Part shown: positions 24,776 through 38,673 of the stretch, piece after piece
How the letters are laid out: every line of letters starts with the position of its first letter
Position numbering within the stretch: the first letter of the stretch is position 1
Source of the DNA: an uncultured Erysipelotrichaceae bacterium
Lineage (GTDB): Bacteria > Bacillota_I > Bacilli_A > RF39 > UBA660
Length of the DNA stretch: 43,216 nucleotides
Assembly: GCA_902800945.1 (NCBI GenBank)
Contig: CADCFX010000027.1
Coordinates: 1 to 43,216, forward strand
Reading direction: 5' to 3'
Notes under the pieces: model-generated
Databases searched by the model: none
Seen by the model: only the letters and a program-made list of their open reading frames with translations
What the model was told of the DNA's origin: nothing
Translations under genes and position numbers: made by a program

Positions 24776-24907
24776 ATTATCACACTCTTTCTATTTTTTT
24801 ATAAAACAATTATACCAAATATTGTTTCATTATAATATAAAAACTTTAAAAACAATTCTAAAAAAGATAATTTTTGATATAATAATATAAGAAAATAGGT
24901 GTTGGCT

Positions 24908-26986
24908 ATGCATAACAAAAAACTAAATATATATGTTTATTTTTTAGTAGTTTTATTATATTATTTAATATTTGAACTATTAACCAGTTATACTCTAGGT
25001 CCTTTCGCCTCAATAATTCGTTACAGCAAATATGGCTTTTATATCATTACCGAAGTGTGCTGGCTTGCTTTAGTTCTGCTAGCTATATTTCTTTTTAAGG
25101 ACGGTAAGATATTTGCTAATAAAAAAGAGGGGGTTTTTAAAACATTGTATATTTGTTTCCCTCTAACTTTTATTTCGATTGTATATACTGTTGGTAACTT
25201 TAGAAATCTTCTCGGAGCACCCATAATAAATATTGTCGGTTTGATAATTTATGCATTTACCATAGGACTTACAGAAGAATTACTAGTACGTGGTTGGATA
25301 TTAAATAGATTTTTTAATAAATATAATAAAAGGAAAGAAGTATACCTTTCCATATTCTTCAGTGCACTTATCTTCGGGGGAATGCATATTGCTAATATTT
25401 GGACAGGAGGACAAACAATCCCCCAAACGTTACTACAAGTTCTGTTTGCCACCGCCGCAGGCATATTCTTTGGTGCAGCCTATTTTAGAACGAAAAACAT
25501 TATTGGTATGGCCATCGTTCATGGCTTTTACGATTTTAGTATCCTCATTGGTGAAATAAACTATTTTAGAGACTGCACAACGACAGATGTAAGTAGTATA
25601 GCAAGATATCAAATGGTTTTAACTTTAGGCAATTGTTTAATTCTTCTTCTATCAGCAATAATTATAATGCGTAAAAGCCAAACAAATTCTAGTTTTGGTG
25701 AAGAAGTAACTCCAATTATCGAATCTAAAGATAAAGAATTAAAAAGCAAAGCTATTATTGCTTGTATTATTATATATTTTGTGACCAATAATGTCCCTTT
25801 AAGTTTCTTTGGGGTTACAACCGAAGATTTAAAAAACTATCAAAAATGCTATTATTACCCAGAAATAAATATGAACAATGTTGAAACTTCATATAATAAT
25901 TATACTGAGTACACTATAAAAAATGAAAATGTATCATATCATTTTCTTAACGACAATTCTAAATTGGTATTAATCGTTGATAAAAAGAAATATCAACTAG
26001 CCAAGGATATAATTGATTTTAAAATTATTAACAATAACAATAAATATACTATTTATTATTTAATAAAAGAGGAAAAGAGTAGTAATACAACCATTTTTTA
26101 TTCTACATATTTAGATATCAATTCACTATCTAAAGATGAAAAGTATATAAAAGCTTTTAAAAAGTCTTTTACAAAACAAGGATTACCACCTTCCAATACA
26201 CTTGGTGCTATCAAAGAGGTTGGTTATGAACATCTATTTCCACTCGTAAAAGACTATAATAATAATATTCTCTTAATCGATGAAAACAATGTCGTTAGAA
26301 GAATAACTATTGATAAATCAAGTAAAGGAGATCTTATAATTCTGCAAGAAAAAAACAAAATAGAGCAATTAAAAAAAGAATTATATGAGATAATACCCTT
26401 TAAAGATTATAAAAGTATTGATTACTTAGATGTATACCAAGAAAACAATACAACTATTGATAATATAGATACAAGAATACTATTAAACAATAGTTATAAA
26501 CTATCAAATAAAGAGGAAATTGAATTGTCAGTATACTCCGATAATTGCTTTATAAACAATCCGTGCCAAGGAAATGCATATGTTAATAACTTAGAACTTA
26601 TTAACAAGCTAAAAGCTCTCTACAACAAAGATGTAAACGATATTACTTCTTTTAACATGAATAATGGTATAGTAGAATTAAACAATGATTACTGGATTTA
26701 TTTTAACAAGAATGATTCAGTCATTGAACGAATAAGTATTATAGAAGATGCTTATCTTGATGATGAAGACTTTATAATAGAAGAAAAAGCAGGATTCATT
26801 TACAATGACATGCTTAGCAAATATAGTGAAATAGATAATTCTATAATAACTAATAATGGCGATAAAGAAGAATTAAAAAGGTACTTTAAGAGTCATCAAA
26901 AAGATTTTAGTACTTTCACACATACCTTTAAATATGATAAAGAGGCCAATAGATATTTTTATTATAGTACTTCAGTAAACAAATAA
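24908..26986 (+). CDS. CPBP-family intramembrane protease with large extracytoplasmic domain
   Basis: 692 aa from the ATG at 24908 (AGGTG six bases upstream; the in-frame GTG at 24899 is part of that RBS). Residues 1-~255 are the CPBP/Abi (CAAX protease-like) core: TEELLVRGW holds Glu123, Glu124 and Arg128, GGMHIANI His160, and MAIVHGFYDFS His205, all catalytic or structural residues of the family. A further transmembrane segment (~283-299) then leads to a ~390-residue outer domain with no known motif, rich in Asn, Tyr and Lys. Most CPBP proteases are 200-300 residues, so this fusion is unusual. It has its own terminator. Substrate unknown. Confidence 0.88.
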   Translation: MHNKKLNIYVYFLVVLLYYLIFELLTSYTLGPFASIIRYSKYGFYIITEVCWLALVLLAIFLFKDGKIFANKKEGVFKTLYICFPLTFISIVYTVGNFRNLLGAPIINIVGLIIYAFTIGLTEELLVRGWILNRFFNKYNKRKEVYLSIFFSALIFGGMHIANIWTGGQTIPQTLLQVLFATAAGIFFGAAYFRTKNIIGMAIVHGFYDFSILIGEINYFRDCTTTDVSSIARYQMVLTLGNCLILLLSAIIIMRKSQTNSSFGEEVTPIIESKDKELKSKAIIACIIIYFVTNNVPLSFFGVTTEDLKNYQKCYYYPEINMNNVETSYNNYTEYTIKNENVSYHFLNDNSKLVLIVDKKKYQLAKDIIDFKIINNNNKYTIYYLIKEEKSSNTTIFYSTYLDINSLSKDEKYIKAFKKSFTKQGLPPSNTLGAIKEVGYEHLFPLVKDYNNNILLIDENNVVRRITIDKSSKGDLIILQEKNKIEQLKKELYEIIPFKDYKSIDYLDVYQENNTTIDNIDTRILLNNSYKLSNKEEIELSVYSDNCFINNPCQGNAYVNNLELINKLKALYNKDVNDITSFNMNNGIVELNNDYWIYFNKNDSVIERISIIEDAYLDDEDFIIEEKAGFIYNDMLSKYSEIDNSIITNNGDKEELKRYFKSHQKDFSTFTHTFKYDKEANRYFYYSTSVNK

Positions 26987-27012
26987 AGATATACGAAAGT
27001 ATATCTTTTTGT
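26985..27012 (+). terminator. Terminator of the CPBP gene
   Basis: Stem AAAGATATAC/GTATATCTTT with a GAAA loop, followed by T residues; the -35 box of the next promoter starts at 27009. Confidence 0.9.
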
Positions 27013-27037
27013 CTTTTTAAAAGAAACATGGTATATT
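27009..27037 (+). promoter_or_regulatory. Promoter of the three-module locus
   Basis: TTGTCT (27009-27014), 17-base spacer, TATATT (27032-27037), 22 bases before the ATG at 27060. Confidence 0.65.
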
Positions 27038-27059: not shown

Positions 27060-28277
27060 ATGGTGGCCAAAAAATCTTTGTTAAGTATTAAACAACTTAT
27101 TGAGTCTTATCCTGACTATGGAAGATTTGCTTTTCATACTCTAGCTATACAACTAGGAATCGAACTAAGCGATGAAGAATTCTGTAGTATAGTTACTAGT
27201 ACGAGTGAGAATGAAAAAGATTGGATTATTATTTACTGCCAAAATAGGACTATAAAAGTATACATAGGAAAGGACAAGTATTGCGTAAGAATTACTCCCC
27301 CAAAGGGAGATTACATTATAGAAACGTGCCATTATTATGATAATAAAAAAGCAACAACGGAACGATTTTTATTGGTAACCGATGATGGGAGAATAACCGT
27401 TAAAAACAATAATACCTCTGGAACCATCGTTGTAACTAATGTTGATTCTACCATCAAAAGAACAATTGAGGAAGACAATATATACACTAACGAAAACATA
27501 TTAGCTGCTAAATATAGAAGGTTTAGTAATGAATTTCAAACAGATAATATAAGTCAATACAAAGAAACTATATATTTTCCAGGAATGGAAGGACTTTATT
27601 ACAGTGAATTAAGTAGCGTATGTGGCGAATATAAATCAGAAGCATCTGCGACACTAACGGTTCCAGATAAAGAAGTTGCTTTGTCAGAAAAAACATATGA
27701 ACTATATGACAGAATTGGAGTTTATTCCAAGGCCTCATTAAAAAGGCCCAAAATAGTTTATGCTTGTAATTATTATGAAGAAGATAGTGCCAATTATCTG
27801 AATTTAGAAATAACCAAGATTATTAGCTCTTTATGTATTAAACTATCTTTGAATGATGAAAAAAGCAGAATTGTAATTGATTGCTCAAGGTATAATGCCA
27901 TAACTATAACAGATTTGCAATTGCTAAAAGAAAAACTAAAGATCTTATTAAGGGGAAATCCTTGTCTTCGGTTAATTATAATGTACTTAGACAATCTCAT
28001 AATAAAAGCTACTAAAGCGACTAATGTCGAATTTAGAAACCTTATTACCTCTCTTAATTATCCATATGGGTATTTGCTAGCTGAGGAGATAGTTTCTGAT
28101 GATGATGATATCTTTGATTTTATTATTAATAATGGCAAAACCATAGGAAGAGTTCCTCGTAGGCTAATGGAAAATAGAGCAGAAGAGTTATGTAGTTTAA
28201 AAATAAATGAGTTGATTTCTAGAATCAAAATCCCGGATATAGCATTAGGTAAAAGTTCTAGAAGAACCAAACATTAA
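27060..28277 (+). CDS. Unrecognised protein, single copy of the tandem module (A)
   Basis: 405 aa from the ATG at 27060 (GGGTGAT four bases upstream). No signal peptide or membrane segment; cytoplasmic. The protein matches, segment by segment, the two halves of the next gene. N-terminal part: P-D-Y-G...LAIQLGIELSDEEF; middle: a beta-rich stretch and YFPGMEGLYYSELSS; C-terminal part: RPKIVYACNYYEED, then IKLSLNDEKSRIVID, then LDNLIIKA. That C-terminal set (aromatic-Cys/Tyr strand, IKLSLND, leucine-rich helix ending in LDxLI) is the most conserved part of the module. Residues ~345-395 carry an acidic loop and a helical tail. No similarity to any family I know. Confidence 0.75.
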   Translation: MVAKKSLLSIKQLIESYPDYGRFAFHTLAIQLGIELSDEEFCSIVTSTSENEKDWIIIYCQNRTIKVYIGKDKYCVRITPPKGDYIIETCHYYDNKKATTERFLLVTDDGRITVKNNNTSGTIVVTNVDSTIKRTIEEDNIYTNENILAAKYRRFSNEFQTDNISQYKETIYFPGMEGLYYSELSSVCGEYKSEASATLTVPDKEVALSEKTYELYDRIGVYSKASLKRPKIVYACNYYEEDSANYLNLEITKIISSLCIKLSLNDEKSRIVIDCSRYNAITITDLQLLKEKLKILLRGNPCLRLIIMYLDNLIIKATKATNVEFRNLITSLNYPYGYLLAEEIVSDDDDIFDFIINNGKTIGRVPRRLMENRAEELCSLKINELISRIKIPDIALGKSSRRTKH

Positions 28278-28287
28278 TATGTTTGGT
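28266..28287 (+). repeat. Hairpin between modules A and B
   Basis: ACCAAACAT/ATGTTTGGT with TAAT loop spans the stop codon of the first gene. No T run follows, so it is more likely an RNA-processing or attenuation structure than a terminator. Confidence 0.5.
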
Positions 28288-28334
28288 TAGAAGAACAATT
28301 ATATGATATAGTATAAAAGGTTTTGGTGATATAT

Positions 28335-30893
28335 ATGGAAGAAAAATATATAAATGGTATTATACTACGTGGATATATATTTCTTGTTGAGAAAAATCCT
28401 AATAATTGGAATGTGGTAAAAGAACTAGCAGAATTGCTAGATTTTTACGTGGGAGAAGAAGAATTTAAATACGCTGAAGTTGAAACAATAATAGTGGCTA
28501 AAGAACAAGATGAAAGGGAAGAACAAGATGAAAGGGAAGAGCAAGCTGAAGAAGAACAGGATGAAGAAGAAAGACAGATAGTTACAATCACCTGTCAAGA
28601 AAAAACTATTGAAATACATACTAGAGAAAATTACTATAGTATAACTATATCCACATCAAGTTGTATATATCGCCGAGAGTATCTTATGCAAGAATACGTC
28701 GGTGATACGATACCATATTATGATGATGACGGCGAATTGAGTAACGAAGAGAAAACAAAATTAAAAGTAAATCCATTCAAAATCGAAGAAGAATATACTG
28801 TTATTGAAGGGGACTATAGGTTTACTATTTTGAGCAGCGAAGATGATGAAATAGTAACTATTGAAATGGGAAATACGGGTGTAAAAAGAACTTTGTCTAG
28901 ATATACAGATTATGATGACATGGGAAATATGAGCAATTACTGCCAATTGAACTGTAATCAATTAAAAATGGATGTGGCGGAGCAATTTAATGAAGTAGCA
29001 TATTTTCTAGACCCAAATGATATGTTTCACTTTTTTTACAGCGAGATAGACGGAATATACACCATAAAAGGCGCAACAACCCTGGGAGTGCCCCAGCCAT
29101 CCCCAATTGCCCCTGAAAACGAAAGAGAAGATGAACTGTTCGGTAAAATTGGTCTTAATTATGAAACAACAGATAAAAGAAGAAGACCTATAATCACATA
29201 TAGTTGTAAAAGTTACGATGAGGCCTATGATGATTTTGATATAAAAATAATAAAAATCTCGAGTGTATTAGATATCAAAATTAGTATAAATGACGAAAAA
29301 CATCGTTTAACAATTTTCGGAAACAATGAAAATAATATAGGAATAGATGAATTATTAACATTAAAACAAGAATTTAAAAAAATATTAAGAAAAAAGTCTT
29401 CCTATAAATTGTTCGCATCATATCTGGATGAGTTAATAACTAGAGCCATTAGAAGATGGAAAATTGAAGAAGTTTCTCATGCACCATTGGAAAGTGGACA
29501 ATTATATATTAATGAATCCGAAGAACTTGATGAAGAAGACTATGCGCCTGCCAAGTGGACGTTGGGAACTTATGCCGAAGACTTACTTGATTTTTTGGCT
29601 GCTCAAGGATACACACTTATTGATGTACCAGCGGAAGAGTTCTCAAAAAGAATAGCCGATCTCGAACTATATAGAGGGCACCTAAAAGAAGTGTTTAACA
29701 AAATTGTTGTAAAACAACTTGGTGAAATAACTGGTATAGTAGATAAGAGAAAATTAATGAGATTCAGAGAACAAGCTTGTAAAAAGCCAACAGATGTAGA
29801 TTTGGCATCAACGATATCAAATGTGTTAGGGCTAACTTTTGAAAAGGAAAATTTCTGCGAACTATTCCCATCTGATGACGAAGAAAAAGGGATAAAGGGT
29901 TTGGCAATTGAAAATAAAAATGAGCTATATCAAATAAATATACTAGATAACGGCTATGAAATAATGACTATAAAAAACAATTCTAATTATGAAATAAAAA
30001 GAGAGTATCAATACCTACCACGCCTTCCTCTTAAAGAAAGTATTACAATTCCTTTAGGCTTTTGCGATTTCATAATAGAAAAGCATAGAGGAAACAAGTA
30101 TCTTATTAGAGTAAAAGGCGATAACTTTGATTTGGCGCGATCTTATGCATATGATTTCATTACCATTGGTGACACCACTGCCTATTTCAGGACATTTTCT
30201 AATGAAGTAAATATAAAGCGCTTATCTCAAAAAGAGAAGTTGATATATTCAGAGGATCCGGACTACTTTGCTGAGTTAAGAACTAAAGAGTATAAAGGAA
30301 GCTACAAATATGTAGCTGGTGCAATAAATTGTGAATATGATGAGGCTTTTCCTTTACCAGAAAATGAACTGGAAAGAAGTGTAGTAGAAAACTTATCTAC
30401 TCCTCCAAGTATATATTTTTGCTGTTACTATCAAGAAAATGAAAAAGAGAAGGAATTAAAAGTATTCATAGCGAAGCGTAATTCACAAGTATTCTTACAT
30501 GTAATCAATGACTCAATTGATGAGTTTTACATATTAGCCGGAATTGACCACCCAACTATTACTACGAACGATTTGTTTTATATAATGAATTCTCTACCAG
30601 ACGCGATTAAAAATAATCAGCTATGCTTCATTCTGATTAAAGAGTATCTAAACGAGTTAATTATAAGAGGGAATAACCGCCAATTAAGTGAACACATCGC
30701 AGAGATAACTACCTACAATAATGATCAATTAGATGCAATCATGAACGGAATAAGATTGAAGGAAGGCTTATTAACACTTAGTTTAGAACAACTAGCCGAG
30801 AAGATAATGGAAAGCAAAGAAGATCTTCTGGAACTTATAAAAAATACCGAAATAAAATCTCCACAATTAATAAAAAAATCAGAGGACATATAG
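28335..30893 (+). CDS. Unrecognised protein with two tandem copies of the module (B and C)
   Basis: 852 aa from the ATG at 28335 (GGTGAT four bases upstream). Module B is about residues 1-450, module C about 455-852. B has YSCKSYDEAYDD, IKISINDEKHRLTI, YLDELITRA; C has YFCCYYQENEKEK, VFLHVINDSIDEFYI, EYLNELIIRG, each in the same order and spacing as in the protein at 27060. B also contains YSEIDGIY as in A's YYSELSS. An acidic insert near residues 57-82 (see the repeat entry) is specific to B. No membrane segment or catalytic motif recognised. Next gene starts eight bases after the stop, with its RBS inside this gene. Function unknown; likely an adaptor, sensor or polymerising protein, but that is a guess. 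Confidence 0.75.
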   Translation: MEEKYINGIILRGYIFLVEKNPNNWNVVKELAELLDFYVGEEEFKYAEVETIIVAKEQDEREEQDEREEQAEEEQDEEERQIVTITCQEKTIEIHTRENYYSITISTSSCIYRREYLMQEYVGDTIPYYDDDGELSNEEKTKLKVNPFKIEEEYTVIEGDYRFTILSSEDDEIVTIEMGNTGVKRTLSRYTDYDDMGNMSNYCQLNCNQLKMDVAEQFNEVAYFLDPNDMFHFFYSEIDGIYTIKGATTLGVPQPSPIAPENEREDELFGKIGLNYETTDKRRRPIITYSCKSYDEAYDDFDIKIIKISSVLDIKISINDEKHRLTIFGNNENNIGIDELLTLKQEFKKILRKKSSYKLFASYLDELITRAIRRWKIEEVSHAPLESGQLYINESEELDEEDYAPAKWTLGTYAEDLLDFLAAQGYTLIDVPAEEFSKRIADLELYRGHLKEVFNKIVVKQLGEITGIVDKRKLMRFREQACKKPTDVDLASTISNVLGLTFEKENFCELFPSDDEEKGIKGLAIENKNELYQINILDNGYEIMTIKNNSNYEIKREYQYLPRLPLKESITIPLGFCDFIIEKHRGNKYLIRVKGDNFDLARSYAYDFITIGDTTAYFRTFSNEVNIKRLSQKEKLIYSEDPDYFAELRTKEYKGSYKYVAGAINCEYDEAFPLPENELERSVVENLSTPPSIYFCCYYQENEKEKELKVFIAKRNSQVFLHVINDSIDEFYILAGIDHPTITTNDLFYIMNSLPDAIKNNQLCFILIKEYLNELIIRGNNRQLSEHIAEITTYNNDQLDAIMNGIRLKEGLLTLSLEQLAEKIMESKEDLLELIKNTEIKSPQLIKKSEDI
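28503..28574 (+). repeat. 18-bp in-frame tandem repeat (EEQDER-type)
   Basis: GAACAAGATGAAAGGGAA occurs twice in a row (28503-28520, 28521-28538), followed by degenerate copies (28539-28556 and beyond). It encodes acidic six-residue units that could vary in number without breaking the frame. Confidence 0.8.
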
Positions 30894-30900
30894 TGTCAAG

Positions 30901-31938
30901 ATGAACAATAAAAAGAGAGGAGCCTTTTTAAAGAAAGCTCGTGAATCAAAAAAACTAACTCAAGAAGAACTTGGTAGGCTAATATTTTACTCAGATAAAA
31001 CCATATCAGCCTGGGAAAAAGGTATATATACGCCATCTGACTACGAAACTATAATTAAACTATCGGAGGTTTTAGACATATCTCCATTATCAATAATATA
31101 CGGTGAAGATAATACTACAGAACAAGAGCAAATCTATTCTTATTTTAATTATCAAAAACAAACAAAGTTAAAGCTAATAATTATATCCATTATTTTCTTG
31201 ATAACTTTAATAATCATTTTAATATCTTTTTATTTAACTAATCTTCGAGATACAACTAGTATATATAATATAATAACTAATAGAGATGATATAGTTATAA
31301 GAGATAGTTTTTATATTTATAATAGAAACACTAGTATTCTTTCTCTAAATAAAATAATAATTCCTGATAATAAGTATTATATTAACAAAATAGAATTGTT
31401 TTTTAGAGAGAATAATAGAAAAATAAAAATAATGTCTGGACCTAATGAAAATTATTATCTTCAAAATAATAATAGAGTTAATGAATATAGCTTAAAAGAT
31501 TTAATAAAAAAGAAACTATACTTAAGAATATACACTGGTGATAAAGAAATTCAAATACGATTGTTATTAACTAAAAAAGATAAACTTCTTTCTCCCAACA
31601 ACGTTAAGGAAACGAAGAGAGATGCAAATAATCAACTCGAAAACCTAGGATTTATTTATAAAGACGAAGAATATATTATGAGAAGAAATAACATTACAAT
31701 AAGATATAACGAGCCGGGAATTCTTAGTTTAATCAAAGAAAACAAAGATAATAATGAATACTTAAACAAGAGAATAAATAATGATAATATTACATATAAA
31801 AAGATTTATAGTAATGGAAAATATAAAGAAAAGATAATAACTACTAAGGAATATTCACTATGTAACCTTCAAGAAAAAACAGATATCAATCAATTATCCG
31901 AATGTTTAAATTACCTAGCTAAAGAGCTTAAAAAATAA
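30901..31938 (+). CDS. Membrane-anchored XRE-family transcription regulator
   Basis: 345 aa. Residues ~8-62 are an HTH_3/XRE DNA-binding domain (GAFLKKARESKKLTQEEL, then TISAWEKGIYTPS, then LDISPLSIIYGE). One transmembrane segment follows (~93-115, LKLIIISIIFLITLIIILIS), so the regulator is tethered with its ~230-residue C-terminal domain outside the cell, where it may sense a signal. That domain is Asn/Lys/Ile-rich and unrecognised. The RBS (GAGGAC) lies within the last codons of the upstream gene, so it is probably co-expressed with modules A-C and may regulate them; that link is inferred from spacing. A terminator ends the unit. Confidence 0.85.
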   Translation: MNNKKRGAFLKKARESKKLTQEELGRLIFYSDKTISAWEKGIYTPSDYETIIKLSEVLDISPLSIIYGEDNTTEQEQIYSYFNYQKQTKLKLIIISIIFLITLIIILISFYLTNLRDTTSIYNIITNRDDIVIRDSFYIYNRNTSILSLNKIIIPDNKYYINKIELFFRENNRKIKIMSGPNENYYLQNNNRVNEYSLKDLIKKKLYLRIYTGDKEIQIRLLLTKKDKLLSPNNVKETKRDANNQLENLGFIYKDEEYIMRRNNITIRYNEPGILSLIKENKDNNEYLNKRINNDNITYKKIYSNGKYKEKIITTKEYSLCNLQEKTDINQLSECLNYLAKELKK

Positions 31939-31968
31939 GAACTCTAGTATTTATAGAGTTCTTATTTT
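31937..31968 (+). terminator. Terminator of the three-module operon
   Basis: Stem AAGAACTCTA/TAGAGTTCTT with a seven-base loop and a T-rich tail; the stop codon is at its base. Confidence 0.88.
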
Positions 31969-32009
31969 ATATTTCTGTGATAACCTCTTCGCAAGAAAGG
32001 AGGTGCATT

Positions 32010-32747
32010 ATGAACAAAATAATTAAGTCACTATTATTATTGTCTCTTACATTTTTATTTGTAGGAAGTATAAAAGCCGAAGAGTGCAGTATTACAAACA
32101 ATGAAGGCGTTGAAATCTCCTGCGATTTTTATGAAGCATTAAGAGAATATTATTCTGACAACTTCTTATCGTTTATGACACAAAATGAGTATGATCAAAT
32201 CAAGAATAATGATATAGATGACATTGAGGTAATTACATATAATGAAGAGAATCCTTTTATCTCTGGCAGAGAAAATGGAAGAGGCACATACTTTGAAACA
32301 GCATACAAACAATTAAGAATTACTAGAAATGGTAACTTTATTAACGCTAACTTACTATGGGTTCAAAATCCAGTAACTAGAAGTTATGATGTGTTTGGTA
32401 TTAGATTTTACGGCCCAACTATAATAGGTACACCACTATTTAGAGAGTATTATACATTAAATGGCTCAACACATTCATCGTCTAATTACAGTCGTAAAGA
32501 CTTCACAAACGGATTTGGGATATCAGTAAAACTTCCTAATTATAGCGAGCTAGAATCAGATATAACATTCACATATTCTGGAAGTGGAGTTATTTATGCT
32601 TCATACCAACACGCTATAACCAACGTAAGTTTAACTCAAAGTAAAAAATATACTCTATCTTCTAGCGGTTATGGAAGCGTTTTGCTGTTTAATACCGATA
32701 TACAGCCTAAATACGATAACATGACAGGCGTTAGTATCCAAGGATAA
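32010..32747 (+). CDS. Secreted protein, unknown function
   Basis: 245 aa from the ATG at 32010, fixed by AAAGGAGGTG just upstream; an in-frame GTG at 31977 is not used because it lacks an RBS. A type I signal peptide (MNKIIKSLLLLSLTFLFVGS, cleaved probably after IKA, residue ~22) gives a product beginning EECS. The mature protein has two or three cysteines near the start, then ~200 residues of beta-rich sequence (ITRNGNFINANLLW, DVFGIRFYGP, SGSGVIYASYQHA). No sorting signal, lipobox or membrane segment, so it is likely released or held by another protein. No known family. Confidence 0.75.
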   Translation: MNKIIKSLLLLSLTFLFVGSIKAEECSITNNEGVEISCDFYEALREYYSDNFLSFMTQNEYDQIKNNDIDDIEVITYNEENPFISGRENGRGTYFETAYKQLRITRNGNFINANLLWVQNPVTRSYDVFGIRFYGPTIIGTPLFREYYTLNGSTHSSSNYSRKDFTNGFGISVKLPNYSELESDITFTYSGSGVIYASYQHAITNVSLTQSKKYTLSSSGYGSVLLFNTDIQPKYDNMTGVSIQG

Positions 32748-32901: not shown

Positions 32902-34287
32902 ATGAAAAAGAAGTATAAAAGAGCTTTATTAGCAATATCTATTATGTTCTTATTTGTTCTAGGCATCTCTACAGGATATGGATTTTGGAAATCTATTAAA
33001 GAAGGAGAAGTTTCAGATAAGTCTACAACTATGAACTGCTTCAAAGTGTATTATTCTAATAATAACGATTTCATTTCTTTAACTAATATTAAACCGATGT
33101 TAAATGAAGATGGTAAAGAAACTACTCCGTATACAATAACAATAACTAATACATGTAAAGAAGAAAAAGAAATACAAATAAGAATGAATATATTAGATGA
33201 TAATACCATAGACTTAAACGGATTAACCCTATTACTTTCCGGAAATCTTGAAAGTGGAGTTATTCTATATAATAGTCTTAAAAATACAAAATCTACTAAT
33301 CAATTAGTTAAAATCAGTAAATCTTTAGGAATAATGAAAGTTAAATCTAATGAAACGGTGAGAACTAATATTAAACTATGGTTTGATGAAAAAAGAATTA
33401 ATTATTTAGATCCTAGCACATCCTTCCGTGCTCAATTTGAAATAGTTGATACCAAGTTATCAGTTAAACCAAATTTTGCGGAGACGATACTATTAAATAC
33501 CGAAGTACTTGATGGAACAGGAATTAATTATGGGGAAGTTGGGATTAATCCTGGGTTGTATAAAATAACTAACAATGAAAGTGACTACTATTTTTTCCGT
33601 GGAGCAAGTACTAATAATTATGTGGTATTTGCCGATAAAACTTGGCGTATAGTAAGTATAAATAACGACCAAAGTATAAAATTGATACTTAACGATAGTG
33701 CAGGAAGAAGTCAGTATTCTTCCTATCGAAATGCTATGGATTACACCGGCTCAAAATACGTCTATAATAACAGTTTAGTTGATAATCAAAACAACAAGTA
33801 TTTATTGCAATGGTACAAAACCAATATTGAAGATAAGGGCTTTGATAAGATTGTAGAAGAAAGTAGTTTCTGCAATGATACATCAAATATCGTCGAAAAC
33901 TATCATCGCTATTTCTCTGCCTATAGTAGATTAGTAGCTGCTAAAGCCCCATCCGTATCATGTAACCCAACTGAAGAAGACTTTGGTGGTGTCATCAAAC
34001 AAAAAGTAGGATTAATAACGGCAGATGAAGTAGTAATGGCAGGTGGAGTTGATGGCGTAAATAATACAAGCTATTATCTTTATCAACCATATGATTTCTA
34101 TACTATGACACCAGCAGAATACTACGGCTATAATGCGTATGTGTTTAGTGTTAATGGAGCGGGCAGTATCTTAAAAACCACTGTTACAGACACTTTGCAT
34201 ATAAGACCTGTTATTAATATTAACTCATCTCAGACAGTGAATGGCTTGGGAACAGTAGATAATCCATATACGATAGAAACTAATTAA
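32902..34287 (+). CDS. Secreted/membrane-anchored protein with C-terminal RPV-type domain
   Basis: 461 aa. N-terminal hydrophobic segment (residues ~8-27) with STGYGFWKS, the type of leader found in TasA/camelysin-like proteins. Residues ~40-190 are a beta-rich domain (TTPYTITITNTCKEEKEIQI) with a Cys pair. Residues ~195-461 form the second domain, with the order KTWRIVSINNDQSIKLIL, two cysteines, VGLITADEVVMAGG, and LHIRPVININ followed by GTVDNPYTIE. This is shared with the ends of the proteins at 19913 and 41888. No sorting signal. RBS GAGGTG. The locus continues with an anchor protein and sortase, suggesting a surface role; no enzymatic residues are recognised. Confidence 0.72.
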   Translation: MKKKYKRALLAISIMFLFVLGISTGYGFWKSIKEGEVSDKSTTMNCFKVYYSNNNDFISLTNIKPMLNEDGKETTPYTITITNTCKEEKEIQIRMNILDDNTIDLNGLTLLLSGNLESGVILYNSLKNTKSTNQLVKISKSLGIMKVKSNETVRTNIKLWFDEKRINYLDPSTSFRAQFEIVDTKLSVKPNFAETILLNTEVLDGTGINYGEVGINPGLYKITNNESDYYFFRGASTNNYVVFADKTWRIVSINNDQSIKLILNDSAGRSQYSSYRNAMDYTGSKYVYNNSLVDNQNNKYLLQWYKTNIEDKGFDKIVEESSFCNDTSNIVENYHRYFSAYSRLVAAKAPSVSCNPTEEDFGGVIKQKVGLITADEVVMAGGVDGVNNTSYYLYQPYDFYTMTPAEYYGYNAYVFSVNGAGSILKTTVTDTLHIRPVININSSQTVNGLGTVDNPYTIETN

Positions 34288-34381
34288 AAACCCTAACCAT
34301 CCACTAAAACAACACCCAAAATATATATTGCCAAAAATAATCTTTAATAGTATAATCGTAGTATATAAGGGAGTAAGAATA

Positions 34382-34906
34382 ATGAAGAGGATAATGTTTT
34401 TTCTAGTAACTTTATTTGTAGGAATCATCAGCGTTAATGCAATGACTGAAAGCGAACTAGAAGCTAAATTAACTAAGAGCTATACTATTAATGGAGCGAC
34501 ATTTAAAGCAAGCGACTCACAAAAAGTATTGATTAAAAGATACTTGGATCAATACGAAGTAACAAATAATGAAGCTGATTACATCTCAAACAAAATAGAT
34601 GAAGCAAAAAACATTCTACAAGCTAGTGGTAAAGGAAGCTTCAACAATTTAAGTAGAGCCGATAAAGACAAAATAATTGCTCTATGTACAGATATTTCCA
34701 GCAATACCTCAGTAAAAGTAACGATAAACAAAGGTAAATTAGTTGTTTATGTTCCCGGAACTAATGACATTTTCTATTCAGCACCAGTTAATCCGGCTAA
34801 TGGAGATGTGGTACAAACAAGTGACACATTAACAGTTGCAATAGCGGGAGTGATTTCCGTATTAGGTATAGCTATAGCTGTAAGAAAAATTAGAGCTAAT
34901 GCTTAA
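34382..34906 (+). CDS. Small surface protein with signal peptide and C-terminal anchor
   Basis: 174 aa from the ATG at 34382 (AAGGGAG upstream). Signal peptide 1-20 (MKRIMFFLVTLFVGIISVNA), a helical middle region, an ISSNTSVKVTINKGK strand segment, and a C-terminal segment VNPANGDVVQTSDT (~136-149) followed by a hydrophobic stretch (150-166) and RKIRANA. The order polar motif, membrane segment, basic tail is that of a sortase substrate, though the motif is not LPxTG; QTSDT or NPANG would be the candidate sites. It overlaps the sortase gene by eight bases, so it is likely that sortase's substrate. Confidence 0.75.
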   Translation: MKRIMFFLVTLFVGIISVNAMTESELEAKLTKSYTINGATFKASDSQKVLIKRYLDQYEVTNNEADYISNKIDEAKNILQASGKGSFNNLSRADKDKIIALCTDISSNTSVKVTINKGKLVVYVPGTNDIFYSAPVNPANGDVVQTSDTLTVAIAGVISVLGIAIAVRKIRANA

Positions 34907-35540
34907 TAAAATAAAAATAAAAACAAAGGTGATTGTTAAGCAATTAGCAATTGCTTTTTTCTTTACATCTTTTTTCATATTCCTATCCTTAACAATTACC
35001 AAGAATAAAATAGACAAAAGTATTAGATTCATCAATAATTTTGCCGTTCTACAAAATTATAGTGGTAATAAAAATAAAAACATAAAAATAGATACAGTAA
35101 CTAGACGTTTAGTTGAATATCCTAGTTATGGGGATGTATGGGGGAAAATTAGAATACCTAAATCATCGATAGAAGCTAATATCTATCATGGGGATACCCT
35201 TAATCTGCTAAAATATGGCGTTGGCCATCATGCTGGAAGCTATTTCCCTGGAGAGGGCGGAACCATCTTGCTGGCCGGTCATAATAGTAGCCGTGATTTA
35301 GGTAGATTGCCCGAAGCTAAAATTGGTGACGAAGTCATAATCGAAGCCATTTATGGAAACTATACTTATAAGATTGATAGCTTTGAAGTACTTGAAGCTA
35401 AAGAACTAAATGAGAGACTACGAATTACCGACCAAAAAGAAACCTTAATAGTTTATACCTGTTATCCAGTAGATACACCGGGATATAAAAGTAAGAGGTA
35501 TATTATTTATGCTAGTTTGGTAGGTGATACCAATGAATAA
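34899..35540 (+). CDS. Sortase (class D-like)
   Basis: 213 aa. N-terminal membrane anchor (~14-34) and a sortase beta-barrel with catalytic His128 in LLAGHNSS, Cys188 in LIVYTCYP and Arg200 in SKRYIIYA. Leu-x-Thr-Cys is replaced by V-Y-T-Cys. The length and N-terminal anchor fit class D or E enzymes of Bacillota. It attaches surface proteins to peptidoglycan or to each other by cutting a C-terminal signal. Likely substrates are the overlapping upstream protein and perhaps those at 38739 (NPKTG) and at 2-2716 (NPETS). The downstream gene overlaps it by eight bases. Confidence 0.93.
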   Translation: MLNKIKIKTKVIVKQLAIAFFFTSFFIFLSLTITKNKIDKSIRFINNFAVLQNYSGNKNKNIKIDTVTRRLVEYPSYGDVWGKIRIPKSSIEANIYHGDTLNLLKYGVGHHAGSYFPGEGGTILLAGHNSSRDLGRLPEAKIGDEVIIEAIYGNYTYKIDSFEVLEAKELNERLRITDQKETLIVYTCYPVDTPGYKSKRYIIYASLVGDTNE

Positions 35541-36228
35541 AAAAACAAAAATCATCTTTAGCTACATATTATTATTTATCGAATCCATAATGCTTTTTAT
35601 CATCACAATACTCCTTGCTAGTAAGTGTACTATTCTAAATACCAAATATATAAAAAACACATTAGAAAAGAATAACTATTACCAAGAAATATATAAAGAA
35701 ATCCTAACAGAAATGTCTTACTATACAAATCAATCAGGATTTGAAGACAGTGTTTTAGATAATACTTTTACAATAGGCGAAATAAAATATGAGATTAACT
35801 CCTTTGTTGATAACACATATGGAGGGAAAAAAACATCCATAGATACAACGAAACTAGAAGAGAGATTAAGAAAGAATATAAACAATTTCATTAATAGCAG
35901 TAGCTTTAAAATTGTTGATGAAGAAGAAATAAACAAGTTTATAAAAACAATTGGTACAGTATATCAAGATGAAATTAAACTAATGGGATACTCAGATAAA
36001 GGACTCGGAGTTCTTACAAAGATAAACAATCTAAGCATTCTTATTTTTATTAACTACTATATTAAGAATAATATAGATATTAAAAATATCTTCATATATA
36101 GTCCTTTGATAAGTAAAATAACAAAAGACATAATCACTAGTTACTTTAATAACTTTATAGCTATTTCTATAGCATTTCTCTTCTTAGGTATAGTGCTAGA
36201 ATTATTAAAAAAAATAAAGAAATCATAA
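35533..36228 (+). CDS. Two-pass membrane protein coupled to sortase
   Basis: 231 aa from the ATG at 35533 (AGGTGAT four bases upstream, inside the sortase gene). Transmembrane segments near residues 7-29 and ~205-224 flank a ~170-residue outer domain (EIYKEILTEMSYYT, DNTYGGKKTSIDTTK), so it should form a loop outside the cell with both ends inside. The domain is helical and lacks known motifs. Overlap with sortase suggests it acts with it, for instance as a partner in substrate assembly; no direct evidence. A terminator follows the stop. Confidence 0.7.
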   Translation: MNKKTKIIFSYILLFIESIMLFIITILLASKCTILNTKYIKNTLEKNNYYQEIYKEILTEMSYYTNQSGFEDSVLDNTFTIGEIKYEINSFVDNTYGGKKTSIDTTKLEERLRKNINNFINSSSFKIVDEEEINKFIKTIGTVYQDEIKLMGYSDKGLGVLTKINNLSILIFINYYIKNNIDIKNIFIYSPLISKITKDIITSYFNNFIAISIAFLFLGIVLELLKKIKKS

Positions 36229-36240
36229 TAGATTTCTTTT
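36216..36240 (+). terminator. Terminator of the sortase operon
   Basis: Stem AAAGAAATC/GATTTCTTT with ATAATA loop; the first arm includes the last codons. Confidence 0.8.
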
Positions 36241-36256
36241 AAATTGTTTGTCTTTT

Positions 36257-36265
36257 TGCTATAAT
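36257..36265 (+). promoter_or_regulatory. Extended -10 promoter element
   Basis: TGCTATAAT, an extended -10 box, 26 bases before the ATG at 36292; no convincing -35 box. Confidence 0.5.
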
Positions 36266-36291
36266 AGACTTGAAGAATGAAGGGATTTAAC

Positions 36292-37380
36292 ATGAATCAA
36301 GATAATAAAACACAAGTTACAACTCCTCAAAACAATACTAATCAAGCTATAGGAGTAGAAGCGCATCCTGAAGCAACTGTTACCCCCAATGCGACTATTA
36401 ATACACCACCGGTAGCGGAAGCGCCGGCACAACCTGTAGAAAATCACCAACCCAAAATTCAAGATGAAGTAATATACAAAATCAAAGAAGAAAAAGGCGG
36501 CAATCTAATAGGTGTAATTCTTTTCTTTGCAATTATGTTTGCAGCTCTTTATTTCTTGCCAACTATAAATGAGAACATTGGTAAATTTATTCCGGGGATT
36601 TCAAACAATGGAACAATATCCAATCCGCCAGTTTCTGAAAAAGAAGAGAAGGAAACGGATAAAGAAGAAAAAGAAGAACTATTAGATTTGACAGGTTATG
36701 TGTCTAACGCTGTTATAGATAATTTACAATTAGGGAACTTTGTTAAAGATAAAAACACAGGAATCAATAGATTAGCCTTTTACATATTAAACAATGACGA
36801 TGATGTTTTCACCTTTAATGATAATACAATGTTTTACATTGATTTATACGAAAACGATAGATATTTGAGCAGTGCACTAGTTTATTCTTACAAAGATATT
36901 GGACCAAAAGAGTCAGTAGATTTCTCCGTCGTTTTACCGCTAGAAACTTACAACAAAGCTAATAAATTTAAACTAGTAAGAAAGAATAAGTCAGAATATC
37001 CGCCGGTTACTCTATCTATCCAAGAGGGTGAGTATAAAAAGCTATCTTGTTCTTTCAATAATAGTGTAGTAGATTATTATTTTATTGATAATTATCTAGA
37101 GATTATAAACGACTCATATTCAGAGAGTAAAACCGCAATTAATTACGCACAAGATCTAGAGAATTATCGTAATGAGTCCACAAAATACGCTAGTATTCCT
37201 AGCATAGACTATAATATTATCGAAACAAACGAAGGATTTAGTGTTAAGACAAGAATAGATTTGCAAGATATAAATGATTCTGATTTAAAAAAGTTGGCTA
37301 TTTATAAATATTTTAGTTATCATAAAGAAGCCAAAGTAGTATCATTTGAAATGAAAGCGTTAGGTTATAATTGTAGTTAG
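36292..37380 (+). CDS. Membrane protein with disordered N-terminus, unknown function
   Basis: 362 aa from the ATG at 36292; an in-frame ATG at 36277 forms part of the AAGGGA ribosome site and is not used. Residues 1-~65 are Gln/Asn/Pro/Thr/Ala-rich and disordered. A transmembrane segment (~72-92, LIGVILFFAIMFAALYFLP) orients the C-terminus outside, followed by an acidic linker (EKEEKETDKEEKEELL) and a ~230-residue outer domain with strands (DVFTFNDNTMFYIDLYEND, quoted in part as MFYIDLYEND) and two late cysteines. The layout copies that of the protein at 23024. It lies 11 bases upstream of scpA and is probably co-transcribed, although no functional link is known. Confidence 0.7.
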   Translation: MNQDNKTQVTTPQNNTNQAIGVEAHPEATVTPNATINTPPVAEAPAQPVENHQPKIQDEVIYKIKEEKGGNLIGVILFFAIMFAALYFLPTINENIGKFIPGISNNGTISNPPVSEKEEKETDKEEKEELLDLTGYVSNAVIDNLQLGNFVKDKNTGINRLAFYILNNDDDVFTFNDNTMFYIDLYENDRYLSSALVYSYKDIGPKESVDFSVVLPLETYNKANKFKLVRKNKSEYPPVTLSIQEGEYKKLSCSFNNSVVDYYFIDNYLEIINDSYSESKTAINYAQDLENYRNESTKYASIPSIDYNIIETNEGFSVKTRIDLQDINDSDLKKLAIYKYFSYHKEAKVVSFEMKALGYNCS

Positions 37381-37391
37381 GAAGTGCTCCC

Positions 37392-38114
37392 ATGACATAC
37401 AACTTTTGCATAAATGATTTTGAAGGACCTCTAGACCTCCTTTTACACTTAGTAAAAGAATCTAAAATGGATATCTATGAAATCAATATTAGAATGATAA
37501 TTGAGCAATATTTAGAATACATTCATTCTTTAAAAGAAAAGAATATTGATATAGCATCAGAATATCTAGTTATGGCATCAGAATTAGTTCATCTAAAAAG
37601 TAAAATGCTAATTAACAAAGAAGAAACTGAAGAGGAAAGTGACGAATACAATATTAATTCCGAAGAAGAATTGAGAGAAAGACTAATAGAATATGAAAAA
37701 TATAAAGAAATAACCAGAAGTTTATCAGAATTAGAAGAAAAAAGAAGTGAAGTGTATACAAAAATACCTGAAAACCTTAAAGAATTTGCCGATATAAAAA
37801 AATTACCTAAAGGCATTTTTGATCTCGATGATTTGTATGATGCATACTTAGCATATTTAAAAAGAAAAAAGCTAGAAAAACCATTAAATACTAGAATATC
37901 TCATAAAGAGATGAGTATTGAAGATAGAATTACATATATAAGAGATATTTTAAAAGAGAAAGAAAAAGTAGAATTCTTTGATTTGTTTGAAACGTTTAAC
38001 AAGGAAAATGTTGTAATTACTTTTCTTTCTATTCTTGAAATGGCTAAAAAAGATGAAATATATATAAGTCAAATTGACAATTTTAGCCCAATATATATAG
38101 AGAAGAGAGCGTAA
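37392..38114 (+). CDS. scpA: Segregation and condensation protein A
   Basis: 240 aa, the kleisin subunit of the Smc-ScpAB condensin. The N-terminal signature FEGPLDLLLHLVKESKMDIYEI is clear (FEGPLDLLLHL), followed by ASEYLVMASELVHLKSKMLI, the helix that binds ScpB/SMC neck; the C-terminus has the winged-helix that contacts the SMC head. Organises and segregates the chromosome. It is followed by scpB with one base between stop and start, the usual order in Bacillota. The RBS (AGGAAGTG) lies next to the previous gene's stop. Confidence 0.96.
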   Translation: MTYNFCINDFEGPLDLLLHLVKESKMDIYEINIRMIIEQYLEYIHSLKEKNIDIASEYLVMASELVHLKSKMLINKEETEEESDEYNINSEEELRERLIEYEKYKEITRSLSELEEKRSEVYTKIPENLKEFADIKKLPKGIFDLDDLYDAYLAYLKRKKLEKPLNTRISHKEMSIEDRITYIRDILKEKEKVEFFDLFETFNKENVVITFLSILEMAKKDEIYISQIDNFSPIYIEKRA

Positions 38115-38115
38115 A

Positions 38116-38673
38116 ATGAATTTGATTGGAGTTTTGGAAGGAATTTTATTTGTAGTAGGGGATGAAGGCGTAAACCTCAAACAAATATGTGATATCTTAA
38201 AAGTAGATAATGATGAAGCAAAAAGACTTTTGCTAGAGTTGAAACAACGATATGAAAGCGATAACTATGGCATAAGAATCAGTTATTTAGGAGATGCTTT
38301 TAAGCTTACTACTAAAAAAGAGCACAAAGAATACTATCAAAAACTAATAGAAAATCCAGACAGCAACACTTTGTCCGGACCAGCCCTAGAAATATTAGCC
38401 ATTGTAGCATATAATCAGCCTATAACTAGAGTAGAAATAGATGAAATGCGTGGAACCCAATCATCACATATGTTAAGGAAATTAGTTGCTAAAGGTTTGT
38501 TAAAAACTTCGGGAAAAAGCACAATGCCAGGGCATCCTAATTTATATGCTACAACTAGTGAATTCTTAGATTATTTTGGTTTGTCAACCATAGGAGATCT
38601 TCCGCCAATAGATATTCCAAAAGAAGAGCAAGAAGAAAAAGAGTTGTTTTCTTCAATATATAAAGATAAATAA
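38116..38673 (+). CDS. scpB: Segregation and condensation protein B
   Basis: 185 aa, a dimer of tandem winged helices that binds ScpA. Signatures: LEGILFVVGDEGV at the N-terminus, ALEILAIVAYNQPITRVEIDE (ILAIVAYNQPITR), and GRGT-like region here as MRGTQSSHMLRKLVAKGLL. Start one base after the scpA stop. C-terminal 20 residues are acidic and probably disordered. Smc itself is not in the window. Confidence 0.97.
   Translation: MNLIGVLEGILFVVGDEGVNLKQICDILKVDNDEAKRLLLELKQRYESDNYGIRISYLGDAFKLTTKKEHKEYYQKLIENPDSNTLSGPALEILAIVAYNQPITRVEIDEMRGTQSSHMLRKLVAKGLLKTSGKSTMPGHPNLYATTSEFLDYFGLSTIGDLPPIDIPKEEQEEKELFSSIYKDK

Follow-up and report, generated by a model that had tools for sequence, protein, structure and literature searches.

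The window, i.e. the whole stretch of 43,216 nucleotides analysed here, is one complete contig of a 1.42-Mb draft genome (G000), and the genes of interest all lie on its forward strand. The gene p1 (27060-28277) encodes a cytoplasmic protein of 405 amino acids (aa), which constitutes one copy of a module (A), and its start codon is backed by a GGTGAT ribosome-binding site (duplex energy -10.3 kcal/mol). The gene p2 (28335-30893) encodes a protein of 852 aa comprising two further copies, B (28335-29723), which carries an acidic low-complexity insertion (EQDEREEQDEREEQAEEEQDEEERQ), and C (29724-30893); they were defined by cutting the protein at residue 463, and conservation at the module ends is not sharp. 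Neither p1 nor p2 exhibits a signal peptide or a membrane segment. Upstream of p1 lies the gene of a CPBP/Rce1-type intramembrane protease (24899-26986; PF02517, E 5e-18) with a C-terminal domain of about 390 residues. Downstream of p2, the gene for an XRE-family regulator of 345 aa (30901-31938) starts 7 nt after the p2 stop codon and itself lacks a good ribosome-binding site. This protein was initially annotated as a membrane-tethered DNA-binding protein, and its features agree with that: it has an HTH_3 domain (residues 10-62, 30928-31086, E 1.4e-11), a single transmembrane stretch near residues 85-107 (about 31153-31221, judged by hydropathy on homologues), and a part of about 240 residues past the hydrophobic segment, which would face outwards. 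It is followed by genes for a secreted protein of about 240-245 aa with a signal peptide (32010-32747), an exported surface protein of 461 aa (32902-34287) that has homologues in all 15 genomes of the genus and served as the anchor of our site comparison, an exported protein of 174 aa with a C-terminal hydrophobic stretch (34382-34906), and a sortase (34899-35540; PF04203, E 9.7e-23).

The initial annotation had claimed that two genes encode three copies of a module of about 400 residues, and all coordinates as well as the pairwise homology hold, with the sequence blocks it quoted all present and aligned in order and register. In blastp comparisons A matches B with E 9e-28 and C with E 6e-8, and B matches C with E 8e-4. 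The Smith-Waterman scores (300 for A-B, 144 for A-C, 87 for B-C) exceed everything obtained in 300 shuffles (maxima 70, 77 and 80, respectively), hence the modules are homologous far above chance. The family profile retrieves module B with E 7e-150, although this profile itself includes module B. Comparison with Pfam, NCBIfam, PHROGs, PADLOC and PDB families yielded no convincing match, only single sub-threshold ones, in agreement with the family having been described as unknown. Centrin and calmodulin, which came up in the PDB sequence search with E 0.09-0.7, were rejected as a mere EF-hand-like resemblance of the I-T-x-x-E-L motif. In a FastTree phylogeny, A and B pair with support of 0.99 and C branches off separately; together with the presence of B and C in one protein this supports the history proposed earlier, i.e. 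duplication (the A and B grouping) plus fusion (B with C).

Structures of modules A and C were predicted with AlphaFold2 from one and the same four-sequence alignment. The models (pLDDT 56 and pTM 0.46 for A, pLDDT 65 and pTM 0.64 for C) exhibit the same order of elements, comprising two helices, about 13 antiparallel strands, a helix, three to four strands and C-terminal helices. The expectation of one shared fold is thus borne out at the level of predicted secondary-structure order, which is a weak test of the fold because the same four sequences stand behind both predictions; no informative fold match was obtained. Comparison with the single-layer β-sheets of OspA and TCP10 gave Z up to 8.8 at rmsd 4.5-5.8, on the pLDDT-65 model and mixed with porins and apoB. 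The Foldseek and VIA matches (OspA, TCP10, porins, apoB and oxysterol-binding-protein-related folds) look like generic β-meander similarity to models of low to medium confidence.

A repeat search placed a terminator at the end of the protease gene (26985-27008, forward strand), with the inverted repeat AAAGATATAC/GTATATCTTT followed by a T-run, and the same arrangement is also visible in G014 and G007, two of the related genomes discussed below. It is followed by a predicted promoter-like site of p1 (27009-27037, forward strand; TTGTCT-17-TATATT with an extended -10 TG), identified in a consensus scan. At the far end, the gene set is closed by a strong rho-independent terminator with a 15-bp stem (31932-31968, forward strand). 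Of the single promoter and terminator that had been thought to bracket the set, the terminator stands, but the single promoter is doubtful, as p1 and p2 each have a -10-like element and a leader. Those of p2 are an extended -10-like element noticed by sequence inspection (TGATATAGT, 28304-28312) and a leader with a ribosome-binding site (GGTTTTGGTGAT, 28319-28330) that is common to module genes, both on the forward strand; a TGnTAnnnT -10-like element and a leader similar to GGTTTTGGTGAT stand directly ahead of the start codon in p1, p2 and the module genes of G014 and G007. These elements suggest that p2 probably has its own transcription start and that the duplication took in the leader. The p1 stop codon lies within a perfect inverted repeat of 10 bp (AACCAAACAT-taat-ATGTTTGGTT, 28265-28288), which has no T-run and may be an operator or a weak terminator.

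To find modules elsewhere, a protein search of 146 relatives was followed by a profile search. The former identified module genes in G014 and G007 only and the latter added a partial one at a contig end in G010, so that, counting G000, four species of the genus have one. Profile matches to a histidine kinase in G011 and to trigger factor in G029 were dismissed as accidental similarity of helical or charged stretches. In 4/4 of these species the module gene lies directly 3' of the CPBP protease gene, whose product in G014, G007 and G010 is 49-60% identical to that of the window. The XRE gene comes directly after the module gene in G000, G014 and G007, and in G010 the contig breaks within the module and another contig starts within the XRE gene, which is consistent with linkage. 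The gene order that the initial annotation suggested looking for thus recurs in the three readable genomes, with the fourth consistent, but not in wider relatives, and at least six members of the genus have close XRE relatives without modules. Identity of the modules between species is 24-29%, as compared with 49-88% for the protease, HAD, surface protein, sortase and ScpA; taken separately, the protease and the adjacent 583-aa gene product range over 43-60%, the N-terminus of the XRE regulator over 63-79%, the 461-aa surface protein over 68-76%, ScpA over 82-88%, and the 174-aa protein over 83-93% inside the module clade. The best reading would be that the modules are a very fast-evolving, lineage-specific cytoplasmic family that was duplicated locally.

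The genus has many long XRE homologues, and the secreted protein is a recurrent partner of XRE regulators across the bacterial family. Homologues of the secreted protein, 38 in total, occur in 19 of 59 genomes, and at least 22 of them are encoded directly downstream of an XRE match on the same strand, mostly without modules, and a genome search found its counterpart in G014 to be 75% identical. The XRE/secreted-protein pair often occurs in several copies per genome (window 30901-32747; L017-L022). Judging from gene neighbourhoods, the XRE regulator and the secreted protein form the unit that recurs, with the module added in one clade, since the pair is found repeatedly without any module. The self-contained regulatory or assembly system envisaged at first therefore holds as far as linkage in the four-species clade is concerned, but not as a general unit, in which the partner of XRE is the secreted protein that had been left out.

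At the junction between the module and XRE genes, the two genes share 11 nt in G014, and the XRE start lies 1 nt after the module stop in G007 and 7 nt after it in the window. Predicted pairing with the 16S tail upstream of the XRE start amounts to -1.0, -0.3 and -6.4 kcal/mol, respectively. Seven module-less XRE homologues reach -8.2 to -10.7 kcal/mol, and the module genes about -9 to -11 kcal/mol. A start that abuts or overlaps the module stop, combined with a weak predicted ribosome-binding site, indicates that XRE is probably translated after the module gene. Its translation in the module clade would then probably depend on translation of the module gene by stop-start coupling, and co-expression of the two, as read from the gene arrangement, is well supported. 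A counter-example is the module-less XRE homologue of G008, which also lacks a ribosome-binding site at the ORF start used, probably owing to start-codon misassignment. An XRE gene directly downstream of its partner, and overlapping it in one species, also brings to mind type II toxin-antitoxin pairs, in which XRE would be the antitoxin of the module protein. We regard this as very improbable, because the regulator is membrane-anchored with an outer domain of about 240 residues, the module proteins (405-852 aa) show no match to a toxin family, and the regulator is found without the module in relatives.

We tentatively favour a reading in which the module is functionally coupled to the regulator. 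The products of p1 and p2 would represent an undescribed cytoplasmic domain of about 400 residues, present in one or two copies and composed of two N-terminal helices, a long antiparallel β-meander and C-terminal helices. In the four-species clade the modules would come first in an operon that ends with the gene for the membrane-anchored XRE regulator, this regulator probably being made only once a module gene has been translated. The outer domain of the regulator would most likely read out the secreted protein encoded just downstream, with the signal presumably running from outside to DNA, and the DNA-binding domain may control its own operon and/or the neighbouring genes for surface proteins and sortase. 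The modules themselves would most likely serve as co-factors in the cytoplasm, where they may hold the regulator at the membrane, titrate it or tune it.

A wider, likewise undescribed family, to which a weak match in G360 (401 aa, a different genus) opened the way, bears on this reading. The family, termed here A4, comprises cytoplasmic proteins of about 400-440 aa from 13 of 150 sampled genera and three further ones, i.e. 16 genera, all belonging to the same GTDB family as the window. Its members have an N-terminal helical part with the motif F-x-I-P-I-D-x-x-R-x-x-D-Y, a β-rich centre and, close to the end, a helix with I-T-x-x-E-L. Alignment of the profile of the window family (A2) with that of A4 by hhalign gave a score of 57 (E 9.7e-7, probability 91%) over 300 colinear columns, compared with 33 for the best of 60 block shuffles, 20.5 for the best of 60 column shuffles and 15 for the reversed profile, at an identity of only 9%. 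The two groups are alike in length, layout, an I-x-K motif, and I-T-x-x-E/D-L with the helix after it. However, A4 proteins are single-copy, have no XRE neighbour and conserve other residues; their N-terminal motif is absent from the window modules, where the aligned place reads like L-G-I-E-L-S-D-E-E-F and shares the hydrophobic pattern alone. At this level of similarity, modules and A4 are taken as sister groups of one superfamily, the modules being a distant sister and not members of A4. A search of 395 genomes from the whole class, at reduced sensitivity, yielded no relatives, and neither did phage, plasmid or viral-contig collections. In two genomes a second undescribed family of about 345 aa adjoins module relatives (L068:273-1328 and L070:4810-5835, 31% mutual identity), and the L070 copy has no Pfam or PADLOC match. 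Interrupted or truncated relatives, with internal stops or split frames, were also noticed (L072:9682-10428, L078:2224-3622, and L069 of G257), which suggests repeated decay of the family, or alternatively draft sequencing error.

The A4 members are solitary, and occur in varied, mostly housekeeping contexts, with no recognisable XRE neighbour within the stretches read. Since this holds for 16 sampled genera, the basic function of the module cannot depend on the XRE regulator. Relatives lacking a link to XRE, which the initial annotation had named as evidence against its proposal, thus exist outside the four-species clade. These solitary relatives, their profile-profile homology to the modules, and the XRE/secreted-protein units that do without modules elsewhere all fit an explanation that we consider equally good as the tuning one and hold just as tentatively, namely that the modules represent a separate orphan family within this bacterial family, functionally unrelated to the regulator, which persisted or landed here, and that XRE merely borrows their promoter and translation. 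Against it speak the fact that the module species have retained both the linkage and the tight spacing despite a module identity of about 25%, and the poor ribosome-binding site of XRE at this place, which implies that module and XRE are probably obligately co-expressed.

Rapid divergence, change in copy number and patchy occurrence (13/150 sampled genera) might also be expected of conflict genes, i.e. anti-phage or toxin/immunity proteins, and the modules are indeed cytoplasmic, fast evolving, duplicated and located beside an XRE gene. However, the PADLOC matches are weak (JukB with E 0.0021 at 15 bits, for p2 only, and RmrA matched by the XRE regulator in the HTH alone), and we saw no catalytic motif, no relatives on phages, plasmids or viral contigs, and no defence-island neighbours, so that this explanation appears improbable.

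The history of the site points to another possible origin. In most relatives without the module, the 461-aa gene is followed by genes for a SigF/G-like sigma factor, SpoVAC, SpoVAD and SpoVAE, a gene like that of the 367-aa protein, and ScpA-ScpB. In the module clade, the 174-aa protein, the sortase and a membrane protein replace the sigma-spoVA genes (window 32902-38673, compared with L083-L089), and the protease, module, XRE and secreted-protein genes stand upstream of the 461-aa/sortase locus. SpoVAD was detected in none of the four module genomes, two of which are only 64-73% complete, and in 7 of the 11 other members of the genus; sporulation losses within the order RF39 have been described (PMC10868615). 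The lack of detectable SpoVAD, combined with a sortase locus in place of the sigma-SpoVAC-AD-AE genes, indicates that the locus was rebuilt around surface proteins. Four of the 16 A4 members, from four genera, stand close to spoVA or sporulation sigma genes, at no more than about 8 kb from spoVA: immediately 5' of the spoVAC-AD-AE genes in G064 (L091:9365-10777), one gene from spoVAC in G230 (L075:2342-3595), behind scpAB and about 3.5 kb from SpoVAD in G246 (L076:8780-9979), and about 7.5 kb from SpoVAD in G257 (L069:9401-10666). This proximity is a lead, not proof. It raises the possibility, to which we assign little likelihood, that the family is an ancestral sporulation-locus protein from near spoVA/scpAB, and that the window modules were repurposed after the clade had lost sporulation. 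The position of the window locus at the spoVA/scpAB site of its genus would fit, and so would SpoVAD being present in 15 of the 16 A4-bearing genomes; however, this co-occurrence is hardly informative, given how common SpoVAD is among background genomes of the family (41 of 49). Besides, in the stretches read 12 of the 16 relatives have no spoVA genes close by, the four that do could stem from the shared ancestry of a few loci, and the upstream regions by eye resemble ordinary extended -10 promoters, not those of forespore or mother-cell sigma factors.

The module family is absent from the standard family libraries searched and occurs within a large Bacilli-type group of uncultured bacteria, and the module clade provides a natural example of how a sporulation locus became one for surface proteins. 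Returning to the tuning reading, its most specific form would be a three-part device composed of a secreted ligand, a membrane XRE receptor-regulator and a fast-evolving β-meander co-regulator, the last from an undescribed family recruited when sporulation was lost and the sortase locus gained. We find this form conceivable, although rather unlikely as a whole.

Among known systems, RodZ-like HTH-TM proteins have an XRE-like HTH followed by a transmembrane segment. RodZ models did not match the window regulator in Pfam or NCBIfam scans, and the genomic context differs. Lactococcin-972-type ABC export operons (a small secreted protein, an ABC ATPase and permeases) adjoin the XRE/secreted-protein units in some members of the genus, and one permease near such a unit matches TIGR01654 with E 3.5e-7, at 29 of 189 bits and thus below the family cut-off; such export genes are absent from the window locus. 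A parallel in mode of action is provided by the ToxR/CadC one-component regulators, in which a single chain links a DNA-binding domain in the cytoplasm through one transmembrane helix to a sensing domain outside, with partners encoded nearby (PMC6320335, PMC5430869, PMC7496328). The window regulator would work similarly but is not a member of this group, as it has an XRE/HTH_3 domain instead of the OmpR-type winged helix, an outer domain that matches nothing, and, unlike ToxR and CadC, a recurrent partner that is secreted. The widespread, multi-copy XRE/secreted-protein pair resembles a simple outside-to-DNA signalling system and, if it is true that the modules tune the regulator, the locus studied here would represent an unusual three-part one-component system.
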